From Microvirga roseola (GTDB lineage Bacteria; Pseudomonadota; Alphaproteobacteria; Rhizobiales; Beijerinckiaceae), in assembly GCF_020866965.1 (NCBI RefSeq), contig NZ_JAJATX010000016.1, positions 1 through 64,000 on the forward strand: a stretch of 64,000 nt of DNA, given 5' to 3'. Shown in pieces: positions 61 to 6,051 of this stretch. The position numbers and the translations under genes are program-made. A model generated the notes under the pieces. It saw only the letters and a program-made list of their open reading frames with translations. It ran no database searches and had not been told where the DNA came from. Each line of letters begins with the position of its first letter. Within the stretch, counting starts at the first letter, position 1.

Positions 61-510
61 CTAACCCACCAGTGCCCTAATCATCTCTACCCGCGTCACA
101 TGCCGGCCGGCCTCGAACTGTGCGGTCAGGAACGCATCCACAATATCAAACGCCAGCCCTTCGCCCACTACGCGCACGCCAATTGACAGCATGTTGGCAT
201 CATTGTGCTGGCGGATCATGCGGGCGGAGAATGTGTCGACGCAGACACCGCAACGGATGCCCTTTACCTTGTTTGCCGCCATCATGATGCCCTGGCCGGT
301 GCCGCATAGAATAATGCCAAAGCGGTAATCACCGGACGCGACGAGCCGCGCCGCCGCTTCGCCGTACCTAGGATAGTGTGTGCTCTCCGGCGTCGTCGGT
401 CCGATATCGACCACCACCCAGCCATGCGCTGCGATATGAGCGGCGATGGCCTGTCGGAGCTGAATGGCGGTGTGGTCGCTGGAGAGCACGATGCGGTTGC
501 TGACTGTCAT
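61..510 (-). CDS. rpiB: RpiB/LacA/LacB family sugar-phosphate isomerase
   Basis: 149-aa protein of the RpiB/LacAB aldose-ketose phosphate isomerase family, the usual length for the family. The N-terminal SDH motif (residues 11-13) corresponds to the substrate-binding DH of RpiB. The LCGTGQG loop carries the catalytic cysteine (about C69), and the RQHNDANML segment supplies the ring-opening histidine (about H102). It should interconvert ribose-5-phosphate and ribulose-5-phosphate or related C4/C5 sugar phosphates; the exact substrate cannot be read from sequence. The ATG at 508-510 has only a weak ribosome binding site. It lies just outside the leftmost guaA-type attachment repeat (569-584), so it may be a chromosomal flank or part of a larger island extending left of the window. 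Confidence 0.85.
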   Translation of the reverse strand: MTVSNRIVLSSDHTAIQLRQAIAAHIAAHGWVVVDIGPTTPESTHYPRYGEAAARLVASGDYRFGIILCGTGQGIMMAANKVKGIRCGVCVDTFSARMIRQHNDANMLSIGVRVVGEGLAFDIVDAFLTAQFEAGRHVTRVEMIRALVG

Positions 511-568
511 CGAGAAGTCACCCCGCTTCCCACAGCGATTTGGTGGCCTGACCGAGTTGGATCAACTC

Positions 569-584
569 ACCCCTACTCCCACTC
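569..584. repeat. Leftmost guaA-type attachment repeat (att1)
   Basis: A 16-bp sequence identical to 4491-4506, which spans the stop codon and last codons of guaA. It sits in non-coding DNA here. The sequence to its right (TGTTTC and beyond) resembles the right flank of the copy at 2691-2705, while its left flank is unrelated to the others. This is what the outer left junction of an inserted element should look like. Confidence 0.75.
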
Positions 585-585
585 A

Positions 586-690
586 AATGTTTCTTGCAAG
601 AAAAAGCTCATGTTTTCCAGCACTTAAAGATTGCCTGTGGATACGATACCATGAGCTATGCCATGGCAAAAAGTGCCGCATTTTAGGGTG
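586..690. repeat. Left-end homology of element A
   Basis: Non-coding DNA next to the 569-584 repeat that resembles 2706-2810. Shared pieces in the same order are TGTTTC just after the core, GTGGATA, TACCATGA and ATGCCATG. It contains one copy of the decamer CGATACCATG (644-653), which recurs in both right ends. It is a candidate for recombinase or directionality-factor binding. Confidence 0.5.
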
Positions 691-742
691 CCGAGGAGCC
701 CTACGCGTAGACTGATCCTGGCAGTTACCGTATGTCGATCCG

Positions 743-1333
743 ATGACCGAATCCAAGTTCCGCCAGAATGAGTTATTCCGAGGCGACACACAAAATTCTA
801 GCAAGAATGCGTGTGTCGGCGACAATGGTGGCCGATACGATCTTTTCGATTACGCGCTCGGCTATTTCGATGCCACGCTAATCCTGCTCCGAGCGGCACA
901 GCAGCCCGGCGCCATAGTTGACACGCTAGTCTATCCTGCGTGCTACAGCTATCGGCACAACCTTGAGTTGTTCATGAAATGGCTGGTGAATGAAATGGGG
1001 CTGGCCTTAAGCGACGAGGAGATGAAGGCGGCGAAAGTTCACGACCTCACTAAGAACTGGGAACGCGCTCAGGCAGGCTTCAGAAAGCTTCCTGCGCGGC
1101 TCGCAAAGCCGGAGGAGTTGGATCTGATGGGACTTGCTATCAAGTGCGTCCACGAGATCGACCCGAATGGCGAAACCTTCCGGTTTTCGGATGATCGCAA
1201 AGACAGGCAGCACTTGAAGGAATGGAGCCTGATTAATCTAACCGTCCTACTCGGCTACATTGAGAAGACGGTCGAAGTGATGAAGGACTGGCAATATAGG
1301 CTGGATAGCTACCGGGAGGAGTTGAGAACCTAA
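743..1333 (+). CDS. Hypothetical all-helical protein, possible HEPN-like domain
   Basis: 196-aa soluble protein with no signal peptide or membrane segment. It looks mostly helical. A motif near residues 71-80 (RHNLELFMKW) resembles the RH-x-x-EL-x-x-K helix of several HEPN-type and uncharacterised defence-associated families. Near residues 152-157 the string RKDRQH fits the R-x4-H spacing of HEPN ribonuclease active sites. Both resemblances are weak pattern matches, so a nuclease function is only a suggestion. The ATG at 743 has no strong ribosome binding site and a start a few codons in is possible. It is the first cargo gene of element A and converges on the 76-aa gene, overlapping it by 4 bp. 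Confidence 0.6.
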   Translation: MTESKFRQNELFRGDTQNSSKNACVGDNGGRYDLFDYALGYFDATLILLRAAQQPGAIVDTLVYPACYSYRHNLELFMKWLVNEMGLALSDEEMKAAKVHDLTKNWERAQAGFRKLPARLAKPEELDLMGLAIKCVHEIDPNGETFRFSDDRKDRQHLKEWSLINLTVLLGYIEKTVEVMKDWQYRLDSYREELRT

Positions 1334-1560
1334 GCCTGCGGCCCAGGCAGGTACTCAATCCCCACCTCTTTCAGCTTCAGACGGAGCCGAATGATCTCCC
1401 GCGCGGCGTCGCCGGCTAGGTCGTGGTAGTGGTCGGCTTCCTGGATGCTCCCGCCGCAGGCATTCCGGCGCCACCGCCGGATCTCGTCGGCCCGCACCTC
1501 TTCTTCCTGGCGCAAGCGGTAGAGGATGTCGTCGGAACCGACGCGCAGAATTTCGTCCAT
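1330..1560 (-). CDS. Small hypothetical protein, 76 aa
   Basis: 76-aa charged, probably helical protein with no recognised family. The start is supported by a GAGGGG-type ribosome binding site just upstream of the ATG at 1558-1560. It overlaps the end of the convergent 743-1333 gene by 4 bp. Composition (many Arg, Glu and Asp, no hydrophobic stretch) resembles small accessory proteins of phages and islands. An alternative is a non-functional open frame; the good ribosome binding site favours a real gene. The stretch 1561-1799 downstream on the other strand holds no recognisable gene. Confidence 0.5.
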   Translation of the reverse strand: MDEILRVGSDDILYRLRQEEEVRADEIRRWRRNACGGSIQEADHYHDLAGDAAREIIRLRLKLKEVGIEYLPGPQA

Positions 1561-1799
1561 TCCAGCCCCTCAATGCAGCCCGCACTATACCATGCGCTCG
1601 TCTGTGCTTGGCATTATCCGTGTCCGCGCTAGGATAGAAATCGGAAGGTGCCGGCCAAGGCGTTTCGGACGTTAGATGAGGGGCAGTCCCAGACTGCGCA
1701 TTCGATCGTGGCCGGACCTTCCACTCACTTTGGCCCTAGGGATAAGGGGAGCCGCCTCGGCGGTGGCGCGCTGGGCCCGGCGCGTCCCCAAAGTGGCTT

Positions 1800-2267
1800 T
1801 TGGGTGATGCCTTGAGAAATGTAGATGACTATCGGCCTGTCGTCGAAGCCTTGAGCCCGATCCTGCACGGACTGCCAGGTAAGATCGTGGCGATCGACGG
1901 GCTGCCGGGTGTCGGCAAGACCGAGATGGGACGCTACCTGGCCTATCGGTTCAACGTGTCGCTGATCGAGTCCGACCTATTCCTGATCGAGCGGCAGGGT
2001 CGGCTCGTGTACCGCAACGACGAGATCGCCAGGATCATCGCCAAGCGGGTCGACGCGTACTCACCACGCCCAGTCATCATTGAGAGCGCGGTGGTCTTGC
2101 GGTTGCTTGCCGAGTTGGAGCGCAGCCCGGACTTCACGATCTACATCACCAACAAGGACGCACCGGCAAGCCGAGGCAGCCTCCTGGCCGACCTGAAAGC
2201 ATACGAAGCCGAGTTCTCGCCGCGACAGCGTGCCGACCTGACTATTGCCCTCGATCACTTCGGCTGA
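1800..2267 (+). CDS. P-loop nucleoside/nucleotide kinase-like protein
   Basis: 155-aa P-loop NTPase. Walker A is GLPGVGKT at about residues 34-41, after a hydrophobic beta strand (KIVAIDG), as in nucleoside and shikimate kinase-like folds. A later strand (RPVIIESAVV, about 90-100) ends in a glutamate that could act as Walker B. Substrate unknown; small-molecule kinases and polynucleotide kinases share this layout. The frame opens with TTG at 1800 and contains no ATG before the Walker A region, so the start is uncertain (TTG at 1812 is an alternative). It is the last cargo gene of element A, 30-40 bp before the conserved non-coding right end. Confidence 0.65.
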   Translation: MGDALRNVDDYRPVVEALSPILHGLPGKIVAIDGLPGVGKTEMGRYLAYRFNVSLIESDLFLIERQGRLVYRNDEIARIIAKRVDAYSPRPVIIESAVVLRLLAELERSPDFTIYITNKDAPASRGSLLADLKAYEAEFSPRQRADLTIALDHFG

Positions 2268-2299
2268 ACGATTGATGATGTGGCTGCATCATCAATAAG

Positions 2300-2690
2300 G
2301 GCGGAGCAAGAAAATCGTTCTAAGTGCCTATAGAAGCTGTCTATTCCGGGTTTCCTTAGAAATTCGAATTCGCCGCGATACCATGAACAAAAAGTGCCAT
2401 AAAAATCGGCCAAATCCGTTGACTCTAAAGGCGTTGCTCTGCTGCGATACCATAATGCTAATACTTTGACGGGCTATGGTATCGGAGCGCGTCTGATGAA
2501 TAGCTGAATCCCGTACCCTCAGAAGTACCAAGAAAAACTCACTCTCCTTCGAGTTTTACTCGGTTTGAGCGTCGCGACTCATCATCCTAAAACTATCGTC
2601 GTCGACAAGAAAAAAGCCCACGAAACCGTGGGCTTAGTTCCTAATACGTGCTTCGATTGTGAGGCTTCCTAGACATTATTAGGAGTATTA
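2300..2690. repeat. Right-end repeat of element A
   Basis: About 390 bp of non-coding DNA homologous along its whole length to about 4100-4490. Exactly shared blocks include 29 bp at 2511-2539 (matching 4313-4341) and 32 bp at 2606-2637 (matching 4407-4438). It carries two direct copies of the GATACCAT motif (2376-2385, 2445-2454) and one inverted copy (2474-2484). No open frame is conserved between the copies, so the conserved function is probably at DNA or RNA level. Confidence 0.75.
2606..2637 (-). terminator. Intrinsic terminator in right end of element A
   Basis: Perfect 9-bp inverted repeat (AAGCCCACG at 2614-2622, CGTGGGCTT at 2627-2635) with a run of A on its left side, so it works as a terminator for leftward transcription. 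An identical 32-bp block occurs at 4407-4438 downstream of guaA. In this copy it would stop transcription leaving the left edge of element B. Confidence 0.75.
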
Positions 2691-2705
2691 ACCTCACTCC
2701 CACTC
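2691..2705. repeat. Central guaA-type attachment repeat (att2)
   Basis: 15-bp copy of the guaA 3'-end sequence (acctcactcccactc). Its left flank matches the left flank of the 4491 copy and its right flank matches the right flank of the 569 copy. That is the expected pattern for the junction between two tandemly inserted related elements. Read leftward it still encodes E-W-E-stop, but with TGA in place of TAG. Confidence 0.75.
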
Positions 2706-2810
2706 GATTGTTTCCGGACAGAAATTGATCATTCTTTTCAATGCCTTACGTGCTGCTTGTGGATAAGCTACCATGAAAAATGCCATGACCTCAAAACGCG
2801 ATTCTGAGGT
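2706..2810. repeat. Left-end homology of element B
   Basis: Non-coding DNA next to the central repeat, resembling 586-690 in order and spacing of short blocks (TGTTTC, GTGGATA, TACCATGA, ATGCCATG). It contains a degenerate form of the GATACCAT motif at 2767-2775. Confidence 0.5.
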
Positions 2811-2867
2811 GGTTTAGCCGGCCGCTAGAAGGTACTCAATAGGGGCTTATTGTCGGGAGAGGCTGAG

Positions 2868-3521
2868 TTGCGCGTCTATCACTTCATAGATCAAAAGTGG
2901 GGGCTGGATGACATCCGCAAGCGGCATCTCAAGGTCGCTCGCGTTCACGACCTTAACGACCCTTTCGAGTTCGAGATCGCGACCGCTGATAGAGAAGTGC
3001 GCAAAGCGTTCAGAGCGGTGAAGGACTGGCTACACGAGTCCATCGGAATTCTGTGCTTTAGCCGAGACTGGAAGAACCCAGTCCAGTGGGCGCACTACGC
3101 TGACCGACATCGAGGGCTCTGCCTCGGATTCGATATCCCTGACGAACGACTGGACCCAGTAATATATAGCGAAACACTGACCGAGCCGAGTGACGCCCTG
3201 CTTCGGAAAGCGGGAGATGATCGTTGGGAGCATTTCAAGCAGATCATCTCGACCAAGTACGTTCACTGGCAATACGAGAACGAAGTACGCGTCTACGTGG
3301 ACCTCAGAGGCGAGAAGCCGGACGAAGAAGATCGCCACTTCACGAACTTCTCCGACGAGATTGCCTTGCGGGAGGTCATCGTCGGGCACCGTTCAACGTT
3401 GACCAGGGACCACCTAAAGGCTGCGCTAGGAGACCAGGCGAGTAGCGTGTCACTCTGCAAGGCGCGCCTGGCGTTCAGGTCATACTCAGTGGTCCCTCAG
3501 CTCAATCAGTCACTCTGGTAG
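2868..3521 (+). CDS. DUF2971 domain protein
   Basis: 217-aa DUF2971-type protein of unknown function. Family hallmarks are visible: the N-terminal LxVYHFID start, an LNDPFEFE segment (about residues 27-34), a CFSRDWKNPVQWAHYAD core followed by HRGLCLGFD, and a YVHWQYENEVRVYV segment. The TTG at 2868 is chosen because a GGGAGAGG ribosome binding site lies at good spacing upstream and the family start (LRVYHF) follows directly; a TTG at 2850 is in frame but would overlap that site. It is the only rightward gene in element B. DUF2971 genes are common in genomic islands, but I infer no activity. Confidence 0.8.
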   Translation: MRVYHFIDQKWGLDDIRKRHLKVARVHDLNDPFEFEIATADREVRKAFRAVKDWLHESIGILCFSRDWKNPVQWAHYADRHRGLCLGFDIPDERLDPVIYSETLTEPSDALLRKAGDDRWEHFKQIISTKYVHWQYENEVRVYVDLRGEKPDEEDRHFTNFSDEIALREVIVGHRSTLTRDHLKAALGDQASSVSLCKARLAFRSYSVVPQLNQSLW

Positions 3522-3536
3522 TCTCAGGATTGGTGA

Positions 3537-3959
3537 TCATGCTGCACCTGCTGCGGCGATGGCGGCGCTGTCAGCATTCGCGTTCTTGGCGTAGCTGAAG
3601 CCGTAGGCTGGCCAGTGCTCGCCTGCGACGACGTTTGGGAACTTCTTGACGATGCGAACGCGCCACTCGGGGTCGTTGAAGCCGCAGCCCCGGATGCCCA
3701 TCACAAACGGCACATGCGGGCCGTCCTGGATCTTTACCGTGCCGTCCGAGTAGGACTGATACTGATTCATAACCACGACGGTGAGGCTGTCGCCGCCATC
3801 CCAGAATTCAGCTTCTGTCCCGATGTAGCTACCGTGCCAGATCACGACGATGTCGCCCGTGTGCAGCTCATTGCCAGTATCGTCCTGATAGCCGAGCGCT
3901 ATACCCACGTCGCACAGGCAGCACTTCCCACTGTGAACCTTCAGCTTGTCGGTTTCCAT
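3537..3959 (-). CDS. Hypothetical protein, 140 aa
   Basis: Unrecognised 140-aa soluble protein. An N-terminal CCLCD motif (about residues 13-17) could be half of a metal site, but no second cysteine pair follows. A segment ELHTGDIVVIWHG resembles a small SH3-like barrel strand. The C-terminus is alanine-rich. The start is well supported: AAGGAGAGG lies immediately upstream of the ATG at 3957-3959. It converges on the DUF2971 gene with a 15-bp gap. The layout looks phage- or island-like; no function can be assigned. Confidence 0.6.
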   Translation of the reverse strand: METDKLKVHSGKCCLCDVGIALGYQDDTGNELHTGDIVVIWHGSYIGTEAEFWDGGDSLTVVVMNQYQSYSDGTVKIQDGPHVPFVMGIRGCGFNDPEWRVRIVKKFPNVVAGEHWPAYGFSYAKNANADSAAIAAAGAA

Positions 3960-4099
3960 ACCTCTCCTTCGTTTGGTGATTGTTGATGGAGAGAATTGTA
4001 CCGCTGCCGAGCCGGGCTCGTGATTGATTTTGGCTATCGGAAATTGTGGTTCGATTTGGAAACCAATGCTCGTTGACGATGCGAATACATCGTCAACGG

Positions 4100-4490
4100 C
4101 AACAAAGTTCCGAAAGCGCCCTAAGTAGCTATTGAAGCTTAGCTATTCCAGGATTCCCCAGTAGTCCTGATTCATCTCGATACCATGATCAAAAGGCGCG
4201 CGAAAATCGGGCTGAATCCGTTGAGTCTAAAGGGTTCGCCCGTCCGCGATACCATGACCGTGTTACTTTGGAGAGCTATGGTATCAGAGCGTTCTTGATG
4301 AGTAGCCGAAGTCCGTACCCTCAGAAGTACCAAGAAAAACTTTCGCTCCTTCGGCTTTTGCTGGTTTTAACCTGCCGATTCAACGATTCAGAACTATCGT
4401 CTCCGGCAAGAAAAAAGCCCACGAAACCGTGGGCTTAGCTCTCAATACATGCTTCGATTATGAGGTTTCCTAGAGGTAATAGGAATATTT
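4100..4490. repeat. Right-end repeat of element B
   Basis: Diverged duplicate of about 2300-2690, lying between the cargo of element B and the guaA stop codon. It has two direct GATACCAT motifs (4178-4187, 4247-4256) and one inverted (4276-4285), at the same relative spacing as in element A. It also has the shared 29-bp block (4313-4341) and the terminator block (4407-4438). Together with 3960-4100, where I see nothing, this makes a 535-bp gene-free stretch. Confidence 0.75.
4407..4438 (-). terminator. Intrinsic terminator downstream of guaA, supplied by element B
   Basis: 9-bp perfect stem (AAGCCCACG at 4415-4423, CGTGGGCTT at 4428-4436) followed, in the leftward direction, by a U tract. 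It lies 57 bp beyond the guaA stop codon and would end guaA transcription. The same block is found in element A (2606-2637), so it belongs to the islands rather than to guaA. Confidence 0.8.
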
Positions 4491-4506
4491 ACCCCTACTC
4501 CCACTC
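4491..4506. repeat. guaA 3'-end attachment site (att3)
   Basis: The 16 bp that include the guaA stop codon (4495-4497) and its last codons, repeated exactly at 569-584 and almost exactly at 2691-2705. It marks the crossover zone that keeps guaA intact after insertion. Confidence 0.75.
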
Positions 4507-6051
4507 GATGGTGCCGGGCGGCTTCGATGTGATGTCGTAGGTCACCCGGTTGATGCCCTTCACCTCGTTGATGATGCGGGTGGCGACGCGACCCAGGAAC
4601 GTCATGTCGAAGGGATAGAAATCCGCCGTCATGCCGTCGATCGAGGTCACCGCGCGCAGTGCGCAGACATGGTCGTAGGTGCGCGCATCTCCCATGACGC
4701 CAACAGTCTTGACGGGCAGCAGCACGGCGAAAGCCTGCCAGATTTCGTCGTAGAGGCCTGCATGGCGGATCTCTTCGAGATAGATGGCGTCGGCCTTGCG
4801 CAGGATGTCGAGCTTCTCGCGGGTGATCTCGCCCGGCACGCGGATGGCGAGGCCAGGGCCCGGGAACGGATGGCGTCCGACGAAAGCGTCGGGCAGGCCG
4901 AGCTCGCGGCCGAGCACCCTGACCTCGTCCTTGAACAGCTCGCGCAGGGGCTCCACGAGCTTCATCTTCATGCGCTCGGGGAGACCGCCCACATTGTGAT
5001 GGCTCTTGATGGTGACGGAGGGGCCGCCCGTAAAGGAGACGCTCTCGATCACGTCCGGATAGAGCGTCCCCTGCGCCAGGAAGTCGGCCCCGCCGATTTT
5101 CTTGGCCTCCTCGTCGAACACGTCAATGAAGAGCTTGCCGATGGTCTTGCGCTTCACCTCAGGGTCCGACACGCCTTCCAGCGCACCGATGAAGAGATCC
5201 TGCGCCTGCACGTGGACGAGCGGGATGTTATAGTGGTCGCGGAAAAGCGTCACGACCTGCTCGGCCTCCGAGGCGCGCAGAAGCCCGTGATCGACGAAGA
5301 CGCAGGTGAGCTGGTCTCCGATGGCCTCGTGGATGAGCACCGCCGCCACAGCGGAGTCGACGCCGCCGGAGAGGCCGCAGATCACCCTGCCCTTTCCGAC
5401 CTGGGCGCGGATGCGCTCAATGGCCTCCTCGCGGAAGGCCTTCATGGTCCAGTCGCCCCGGCAGCCCGCGATGTCGCGGACGAAGTTGCGGATGAGCTGC
5501 GCCCCTTGGGGCGTGTGCACCACCTCCGGGTGGAACTGGACCCCGTAGAACTTGTGCTCCTCGTCAGCCACCACGGCGAAGGGCGCGTTCTCGGAAGCCG
5601 CGAGCACCTGGAAGCCTTCGGGGAGCTTCGTCACCCGGTCGCCATGGCTCATCCAGACGGGATATTTCTTGCCGACCTGCCAGACGCCCTGAAAGATCGG
5701 GCTCTCGGTCAGAACCTCAATCTCAGCCCGGCCGAACTCGGAGTGATGGCCACCCTCGACCTCGCCGCCGAGCTGCGCCGCCATGGTCTGCTGGCCGTAG
5801 CAGATGCCGAAGACCGGCAGGCCCGCTTCGAACAGTTCCTTCGGGGCGCGGGGCGAGGCGTCCGTGGTCACCGATTCCGGCCCGCCCGACAGGATCACGC
5901 CCTTTGGCTTCATGGTGCGGATCGCTTCCGCCGCCTTCTGGAAGGGCACGACCTCCGAATAGACGCCGTCCTCGCGCACACGGCGTGCGATGAGCTGGGT
6001 CACTTGGCTTCCAAAGTCGACGATGAGGATCTTGTCGTGGGTCTGGGTCAT
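4495..6051 (-). CDS. guaA: GMP synthase (glutamine-hydrolysing)
   Basis: 518-aa GMP synthase, which converts XMP to GMP with ATP and glutamine. The N-terminal class I amidotransferase domain has the nucleophile in GICYGQQ (about C84) and the His/Glu pair in VQFHPEV (about 174-176). The ATP-pyrophosphatase domain starts with SGGVDSAV (about 228), and the C-terminal dimerisation domain ends in the conserved IEWE. It is full length. guaB lies 2.1 kb upstream in the same orientation, with three genes between, so both steps from IMP to GMP are encoded here. Its last codons form the attachment site used by the two elements downstream. Confidence 0.98.

Follow-up and report, generated by a model that had tools for sequence, protein, structure and literature searches.

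The 64-kb window of Microvirga roseola DNA analysed here carries about 4 kb of additional DNA at the 3' end of guaA, and all coordinates below are window positions. We believe, with a probability of about 0.7, that this 4 kb consists of two site-specifically integrated, integrase-less islands in tandem, which resemble cis-mobilizable elements (CIMEs), are cognate to the GIsul2-type integrase and used an integrase from another element. The ends of the units, the core copies, the empty sites, the different cargo, the lack of a close integrase in the carrier genomes and the identity of the cognate integrase family were observed.

Two units at the 3' end of guaA

Read on the opposite strand, the guaA end is the decamer ACTCCCACTC. 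The plus strand of the 64-kb window has three copies of it, starting at 575, 2696 and 4497, and the complement is absent. The copies delimit unit 1 of 2,121 bp and unit 2 of 1,801 bp. An earlier, sequence-only reading had proposed three guaA-end copies around units of about 2.1 and 1.8 kb, and its coordinates for the copies fit within a few bases. Core copy 1 (575..584) is the distal junction with the chromosome and is followed by a left end. Core copy 2 (2696..2705), the attP-like junction between the units, is preceded by a right end and followed by a left end. Core copy 3 (4497..4506) lies inside the last guaA codons; a right end precedes it and guaA follows. The flank pairing of a tandem, which had also been claimed, was found in this order. 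The target gene guaA (4495..6051, minus strand) is intact, and its protein is 86-99% identical in the other 47 genomes of the genus, the copy of G034 being in two pieces. The units sit at the guaA 3' end with the GIsul2 core GAGTGGGA, which was taken from Zhang et al. 2022 (PMC9376610). The G+C content is 55% in unit 1 and 53% in unit 2, 65% in guaA and 63% in the window.

The right ends are 77% identical by blastn (2312-2705 and 4100-4506) and agree in 73.8% of 423 aligned columns over 2270-2695 and 4071-4496. The left ends of units 1 and 2 agree in 61.1% of 113 columns. The blastn similarity between the units (E<=1e-3) was limited to these two ends and the cargo was unrelated, as the earlier reading had described. 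Its claim that neither unit encodes a recombinase was borne out as well: when the GIsul2-type integrase was searched against both units with tblastn (E<=10), the matches were noise (best E 0.25), compared with E=0 for the two positive controls. An integrase or integrase remnant in the units was rejected on this result. Integration and transfer genes are absent, and the open reading frames (ORFs) without a family match carry no assignment. The units do not encode their own excision and integration, which would define an integrative and mobilizable element (IME). Because a GIsul2-type integrase is carried neither by the units nor by the genome (none at E<=1e-20), the units were not filed as autonomous members of the GIsul2 family.

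The other 47 genomes of the genus were searched, and the stretches downstream of guaA were fetched from 46 of them (G042 was treated separately), three being shorter than 7 kb at a contig end. An arsC-like gene (31 stretches) or rpiB (4 stretches) is the immediate neighbour downstream of guaA in 35 of the 46. Other DNA intervenes in five, G030 contains its own small unit, and the remaining five showed neither gene. The site is empty in G031, G024, G003 and G022, where rpiB comes directly after guaA, and in G024 and G003 the guaA-rpiB intergenic sequence aligns well with the window flank left of copy 1. The possibility that the 4 kb is conserved DNA next to guaA in relatives, against which the earlier reading had asked to be checked, was rejected with these 35 of 46 stretches without the insert. 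No GIsul2-type integrase was found by tblastn in the 46 stretches.

Attachment ends and the GIsul2-type integrase

The right (integrase-side) end of unit 1 spans 2270..2695. It contains an inner hairpin TTGATGATG-N6-CATCATCAA (2272..2295), arm site 1 GATACCATGA (2377..2386, plus strand), arm site 2 GATACCAT (2446..2453, plus strand), the inverted arm site 3 ATGGTATC (2476..2483, minus strand) and a terminator-like hairpin reading out of guaA (2616..2633, minus strand; GCCCACG/CGTGGGC, then a T run on the minus strand). The right end of unit 2 (4071..4496) has the inner hairpin at 4073-4096, arm sites 1 and 2, both GATACCATGA, at 4179..4188 and 4248..4257 (plus strand), the inverted arm site 3 ATGGTATC at 4278..4285 (minus strand) and the terminator-like hairpin at 4417..4434 (minus strand). 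In this layout, GATACCAT stands twice in direct and once in inverted orientation, the spacings are 69 and 29-30 bp, and the inverted site lies 218-220 bp from the core. These integrase-side arm sites have the spacing of the GIsul2 family.

The left end of unit 1 (585..700) has the arm pair GATACCATGA (645-654) and TGCCATG (from 659), and that of unit 2 (2706..2820) has the arm pair TACCATGAAAAATGCCATG (2769-2787). In the left ends of the window units, which read TACCATGAAAAATGCCATG and GATACCATGAGCTATGCCATG, TACCATGA lies 72-73 bp from the core. The distal end has the core and the TACCATGA/RCCATG arm pair of the family, and both attL and attR are retained, as in a CIME.

The pattern GATACCAT-N-GATACCAT-N-ATGGTATC was scanned against genome contigs of 84,980 species, with one genome per species; the window's own genome may be left out. 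The scan gave 49 stretches, of which 43 have a total length of 104-108 nt and 39 adjoin guaA. In 35 of these 39, the N-terminus of a P4-like tyrosine integrase lies beside the arms, and the integrase starts mostly 4-116 bp from the arms and reads away from guaA. In one further stretch (L025), the integrase is present and the locus ends short of guaA. Among the nine stretches with neither guaA nor integrase, seven look like chance and two (L040 and L054) are element junctions. Within the genus, the arm layout occurred in three units only, in 2 of 48 genomes, and the reversed control gave 0.

The integrase of one such locus (L051) has the arm DNA-binding domain PF13356 and shares 93.5% identity with that of NC_022371. 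The annotation of NC_022371 (int, alpA, repA, repC, trbJKL, ars genes, ISVsa3 and sul2) identifies GIsul2. On this record, the arms at the integrase-side end of GIsul2 agree with the pattern except for a single base of arm 2, and both distal sites of GIsul2 consist of TGCCATGAAAAATACCATGA or a close variant, then the core. The left-end arrangement of the window units (TACCATGA-N-RCCATG pair and core) was also seen in four islands on viral contigs (L057, L059, L062 and L141). The guaA-proximal terminator-like hairpin occupies the same place in 9 of 11 other aligned island ends with an integrase gene or fragment. It is absent from L013 and L054, and L054, which has no integrase, belongs to the 11 only if it is counted as an integrase-less end.

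Among 397 genomes of the family, 43 have integrases at E<=1e-60. Of 20 integrase loci, 17 adjoin guaA. One of these, in G065, has an integrase with 88% identity to the GIsul2 type, and the others are 16 of the 19 loci of a second subfamily, which is about 56-59% identical to the GIsul2 type. The 19 ends of the second subfamily have a like layout with mostly TACCGTCA instead of GATACCAT, and two of them (L118 and L122) deviate at some sites. This indicates that the arm motif follows the integrase type, and the second subfamily with its own motif is a built-in control. Judged by sequence, the window units carry the GIsul2-type arm code, and their cognate integrase family is the GIsul2 type of P4-like tyrosine integrases.

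Two scan loci showed other combinations. In L040 (Comamonas suwonensis) and L054, type I right ends (GATACCAT) are joined via the guaA core to left ends of the TACCGTCA type, and both loci are mixed tandem arrays of two integrase types. In L054, from a metagenome-assembled genome (MAG) of Sulfuricella, the type I end is followed by 7.3 kb without an integrase, in which HicB- and AbiE-like ORFs were recognised by eye; this is a lead only. In L024 (Acetobacter thailandicus), counted among the 35 loci above, only the first 73 integrase residues are followed, by eye, by transposase-like ORFs, which is likewise a lead only.

Further units, missing helper and alternative explanations

Blastn with the right end gave matches in 2 of 48 genomes of the genus, namely the one that contains the window and that of Microvirga terrestris (G042), and in the same 2 among the 397 family genomes. 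M. terrestris BT290 (NZ_JADQDN010000001.1; 3.9 kb were compared with locus L004 and were identical) has a single unit with 1,634 bp between the guaA-end copies and no integrase. This unit was located by blastn and not via its arms, and the arm motif is defined also by islands elsewhere. Blastn identity to unit 2 is 82% for its left end and 69-71% for its right end, and the homology of its right end reaches inward to about 2270 in unit 1 and 4071 in unit 2. The cargo is an N6/N4 DNA methyltransferase (PF01555, 2.6e-32). The earlier reading had staked itself on the right-end repeat occurring with different cargo, and the methyltransferase of M. terrestris is such a case.

The units might instead be decayed remnants, that is, GIsul2-type islands that lost the integrase and backbone by deletion and whose remaining cargo sits in scars that no longer move. 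PMC5704250 describes CIMEs as integrative and conjugative elements (ICEs) or IMEs in decay, no helper was found in the carriers, and the M. terrestris unit holds a 53-bp scrap of the small ORF of unit 1. A further unit, in G030 (L100, about 193-816 in guaA-forward orientation), also fits decay. It is 0.6 kb long, has a single PhnA/YjdM zinc-ribbon gene (PF03831, 1.8e-32), core copies on both sides, no integrase, arm-like sites on one side and no left arms. Against decay stands the DNA inward of arm 1. About 105 bp are common to the three complete units and stand where int is missing, so the integrase was lost before their divergence. This stretch contains the inner hairpin, with the consensus TTGAYGATG-N6-CATCRTCAA, 105-106 nt before arm 1 in all three units; compared with unit 1, unit 2 has one changed base pair that is still paired, and M. 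terrestris has one G-U type pair. Among the loci compared, the hairpin was seen only in those of the three units, and a scan of viral contigs for the hairpin together with the arm gave no match. The arm bases are also all kept in the three right ends (24 of 24), but less than half of the other columns are (205 of 430; Fisher p 6e-8). In addition, a tandem needs integration after the integrase was lost, or two losses with the same endpoint. We therefore consider decay unlikely for the units of the window, and possible most of all for G030.

The relationships of the ends differ between left and right. The right ends of units 1 and 2 are closer to each other (73.8%) than to that of M. terrestris (62.1 and 64.8%), and share 86 sites, the other pairs sharing 37 and 47. 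This would be expected if one unit was duplicated in tandem by homologous recombination and its cargo was then replaced. The left ends, however, group otherwise: unit 2 and M. terrestris agree in 78.1% of 114 columns and share 28 sites, whereas units 1 and 2 agree in 61.1%, and the other pairs share 9 and 8 sites. We give duplication very little credence. The discordant grouping indicates that ends were exchanged or homogenised, and homogenisation of the right ends within the array would account for it equally.

A GIsul2-type integrase was found in none of the 48 genus genomes, where the best match was 35% identical. The carrier genomes are nearly complete, that of the window being in 230 contigs. 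They hold 10 (the window's genome, G000), 4 and 11 PF00589 matches of other kinds. One of these resident tyrosine recombinases, or recombination between short direct repeats, might move the units. Movement of this kind was proposed for the microcin H47 island, which excises and integrates without a recombinase of its own (PMC3191183). For the window units it seems highly improbable to us: the ends fit the GIsul2-type arm layout in motif and spacing, and a core alone would not account for conserved arms. A helper could arrive by plasmid. Integrases at E<=1e-60 occur on 47 plasmid records, 21 of them at >=80% identity; none of these was linked to Microvirga, and a blastn search of plasmids with the right end found nothing. 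The earlier proposal of non-autonomous islands using an outside integrase is strengthened by the cognate family and the arm sites, and it is limited by movement in trans being deduced and by the lack of a close integrase in the carriers.

With the tandem of integrase-less islands as the preferred reading, we infer arm-site binding, action in trans, excision, transfer and a benefit of the cargo. According to PMC9376610, GIsul2 excises from guaA, and int and the att sites are required. A donor with only GIsul2 int and attL integrates, and Int and an att site are sufficient for integration. The same Int also excises and integrates CR2-sul2, an integrase-less unit that lies between attLR and attR. 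By analogy, the simplest account of the window would be the same kind of enzyme acting on units with a complete pair of ends. A GIsul2-type integrase from an incoming island or plasmid would bind the arm sites in trans and recombine the core with attB in guaA, and recombination with the core of a resident unit would give tandems. The integrase-side end has half-sites and a guaA terminator besides its three arm sites and the core; the distal end has the core and two arm sites. Each unit would restore the guaA end and supply a terminator for guaA, the units could be excised again by the same integrase, and the cargo between the fixed ends would have been exchanged.

Several results weigh against this reading. 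Complete units with both ends number only three, in two species, with a partial unit in a third species. The modular cargo-carrying system suggested earlier is based on these units, among which that of M. terrestris carries the methyltransferase on the same ends. The conservation of the arms is based on three sequences. No resident helper was found, as the three carrier genomes lack a GIsul2-type integrase at E<=1e-20. The G030 unit lacks left arms, and blastn showed no similarity between it and the other three. Of the 39 guaA-adjacent type I ends, 4 have no integrase start and only that of M. terrestris is cleanly integrase-less: L047 has an integrase fragment in a MAG, and L020 and L029 are cut by the locus edge, the L029 genome having an 89% identical integrase and the L020 genome none above 36%. 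A tight left-end pattern had no match in G030 or in 25 other island-bearing genomes; as it missed these 25, it says little about prevalence. A relaxed pattern found Microvirga units only, in 2 of 397 family genomes and 1 of 397 order genomes. As the left-end patterns missed the integrase-bearing G065, prevalence is poorly bounded. On viral contigs, the left-end pattern starting with CTCCC had no match, and the one starting with TCCC matched five contigs, the four already known and L141.

A more specific proposal, which we regard as tentative and rather less than an even bet, is a lineage of gene-carrying, integrase-less mini-islands specialised on GIsul2-type integrases. Such islands would have fixed ends with all arm sites, a replacement of int with a conserved hairpin and an exchangeable cargo of 1-3 genes, partly defence-flavoured. 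They would spread among Microvirga without a resident helper, through integrases passing through on other elements.

Known systems, cargo and neighbouring genes

The window units share with GIsul2 and CR2-sul2 the target, the core GAGTGGGA, the arm layout of the integrase side and the distal arm pair. They also share the array with an internal att site (attLR), and they are integrase-less like CR2-sul2, which is moved by Int (PMC9376610). At about 15.5 kb, GIsul2 is larger than the window units (1.8-2.1 kb), and it has int, alpA, rep, trb and resistance genes; the window's genome yielded no helper. CR2-sul2 has in L140 the distal arm pair but no exact integrase-side arms, whereas the window units have both ends. 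The earlier reading had used a rhizobial tripartite ICE as its analogy, guaA being mentioned in PMC8627217; this is a weaker parallel than GIsul2 with the integrase-less CR2-sul2.

The nearest known kinds are CIMEs and the integrase-less ssrA islands of Dehalococcoides. CIMEs keep attL and attR, lack integration and transfer genes and accrete in tandem (PMC5704250). In Dehalococcoides, 15 of 31 ssrA islands have no integration module; they stand in tandem at a single target gene, and it was suggested that they are CIMEs (PMC3146451). CIMEs are described as decay products of ICEs and IMEs, but here the integrase-less ends are common to three units with different cargo and no autonomous neighbour. 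The Dehalococcoides islands differ in using a serine recombinase and in having integrase-bearing islands in the same genus (PMC3146451). Miniature inverted-repeat transposable elements (MITEs) and clusters of attC sites lacking integron-integrases (CALINs) are also non-autonomous DNA served by the recombinase of a helper (PMC11389934), but with other enzyme classes, and MITEs have no protein genes. Distinct here are the size of 1.6-2.1 kb, the complete cognate pair of ends, the common int replacement, the different cargo and the lack of an autonomous neighbour. In the titles and abstract beginnings listed by searches of openly licensed PMC literature for integrase-less guaA islands, no description of integrase-less GIsul2-type mini-islands in Microvirga was found.

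With the attachment code (arm motif, spacing, distal pair and core), a non-autonomous island can be assigned to a named integrase family from its sequence alone, and passenger islands at guaA can be sought that searches for integrase genes would miss. At about 2 kb, the units are very small hitchhikers that carry genes, and they can be tested directly. Since sul2 resistance units are moved by integrases of this family too, the minimal DNA requirement helps to read such arrays.

The cargo of unit 1 begins with a 196-aa protein (743..1333, plus strand) that is predicted to be largely helical. It has no Pfam or PADLOC match, and its relatives occur on 203 plasmid records. In a structure predicted from the single sequence (predicted local distance difference test, pLDDT, 67), HEPN toxins were among the top Foldseek matches, all with E>0.1. 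The protein is perhaps HEPN-like, which is a weak lead rather than a finding. A 76-aa ORF follows (1330..1560, minus strand), of which a 53-bp piece recurs as a 94% identical stretch within the M. terrestris unit; this indicates that the cargo regions are mosaic. A 155-aa P-loop-like ORF (1800..2267, plus strand) matches AAA_18 at 0.0011, under the curated cut-off. Unit 2 carries a DUF2971 protein (2850..3521, plus strand; PF11185, 1.1e-6), which matches the PADLOC candidate defence family PDC-S31 (E 1.2e-25), and a 140-aa ORF (3537..3959, minus strand) with no significant family match. At gathering thresholds, Rfam gave no RNA in 500-4600. The chromosomal flank beyond the array is rpiB (LacAB_rpiB, 61..510, minus strand; PF02502, 1.2e-51).

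In the five Microvirga genomes with other DNA between guaA and arsC or rpiB (L080, L084, L098, L103 and L105), exact arm motifs were absent from the first 6 kb. A duplicated guaA 3' end in G034 (L108), on a short contig unlike the genus, was judged by eye to be likely chimeric or foreign and was not counted as an island. In 31 of the 46 stretches (within L063-L096), an arsC/Spx-like gene lies within a few bases of guaA. With this gene so close, an insertion with its own guaA terminator should uncouple both genes.

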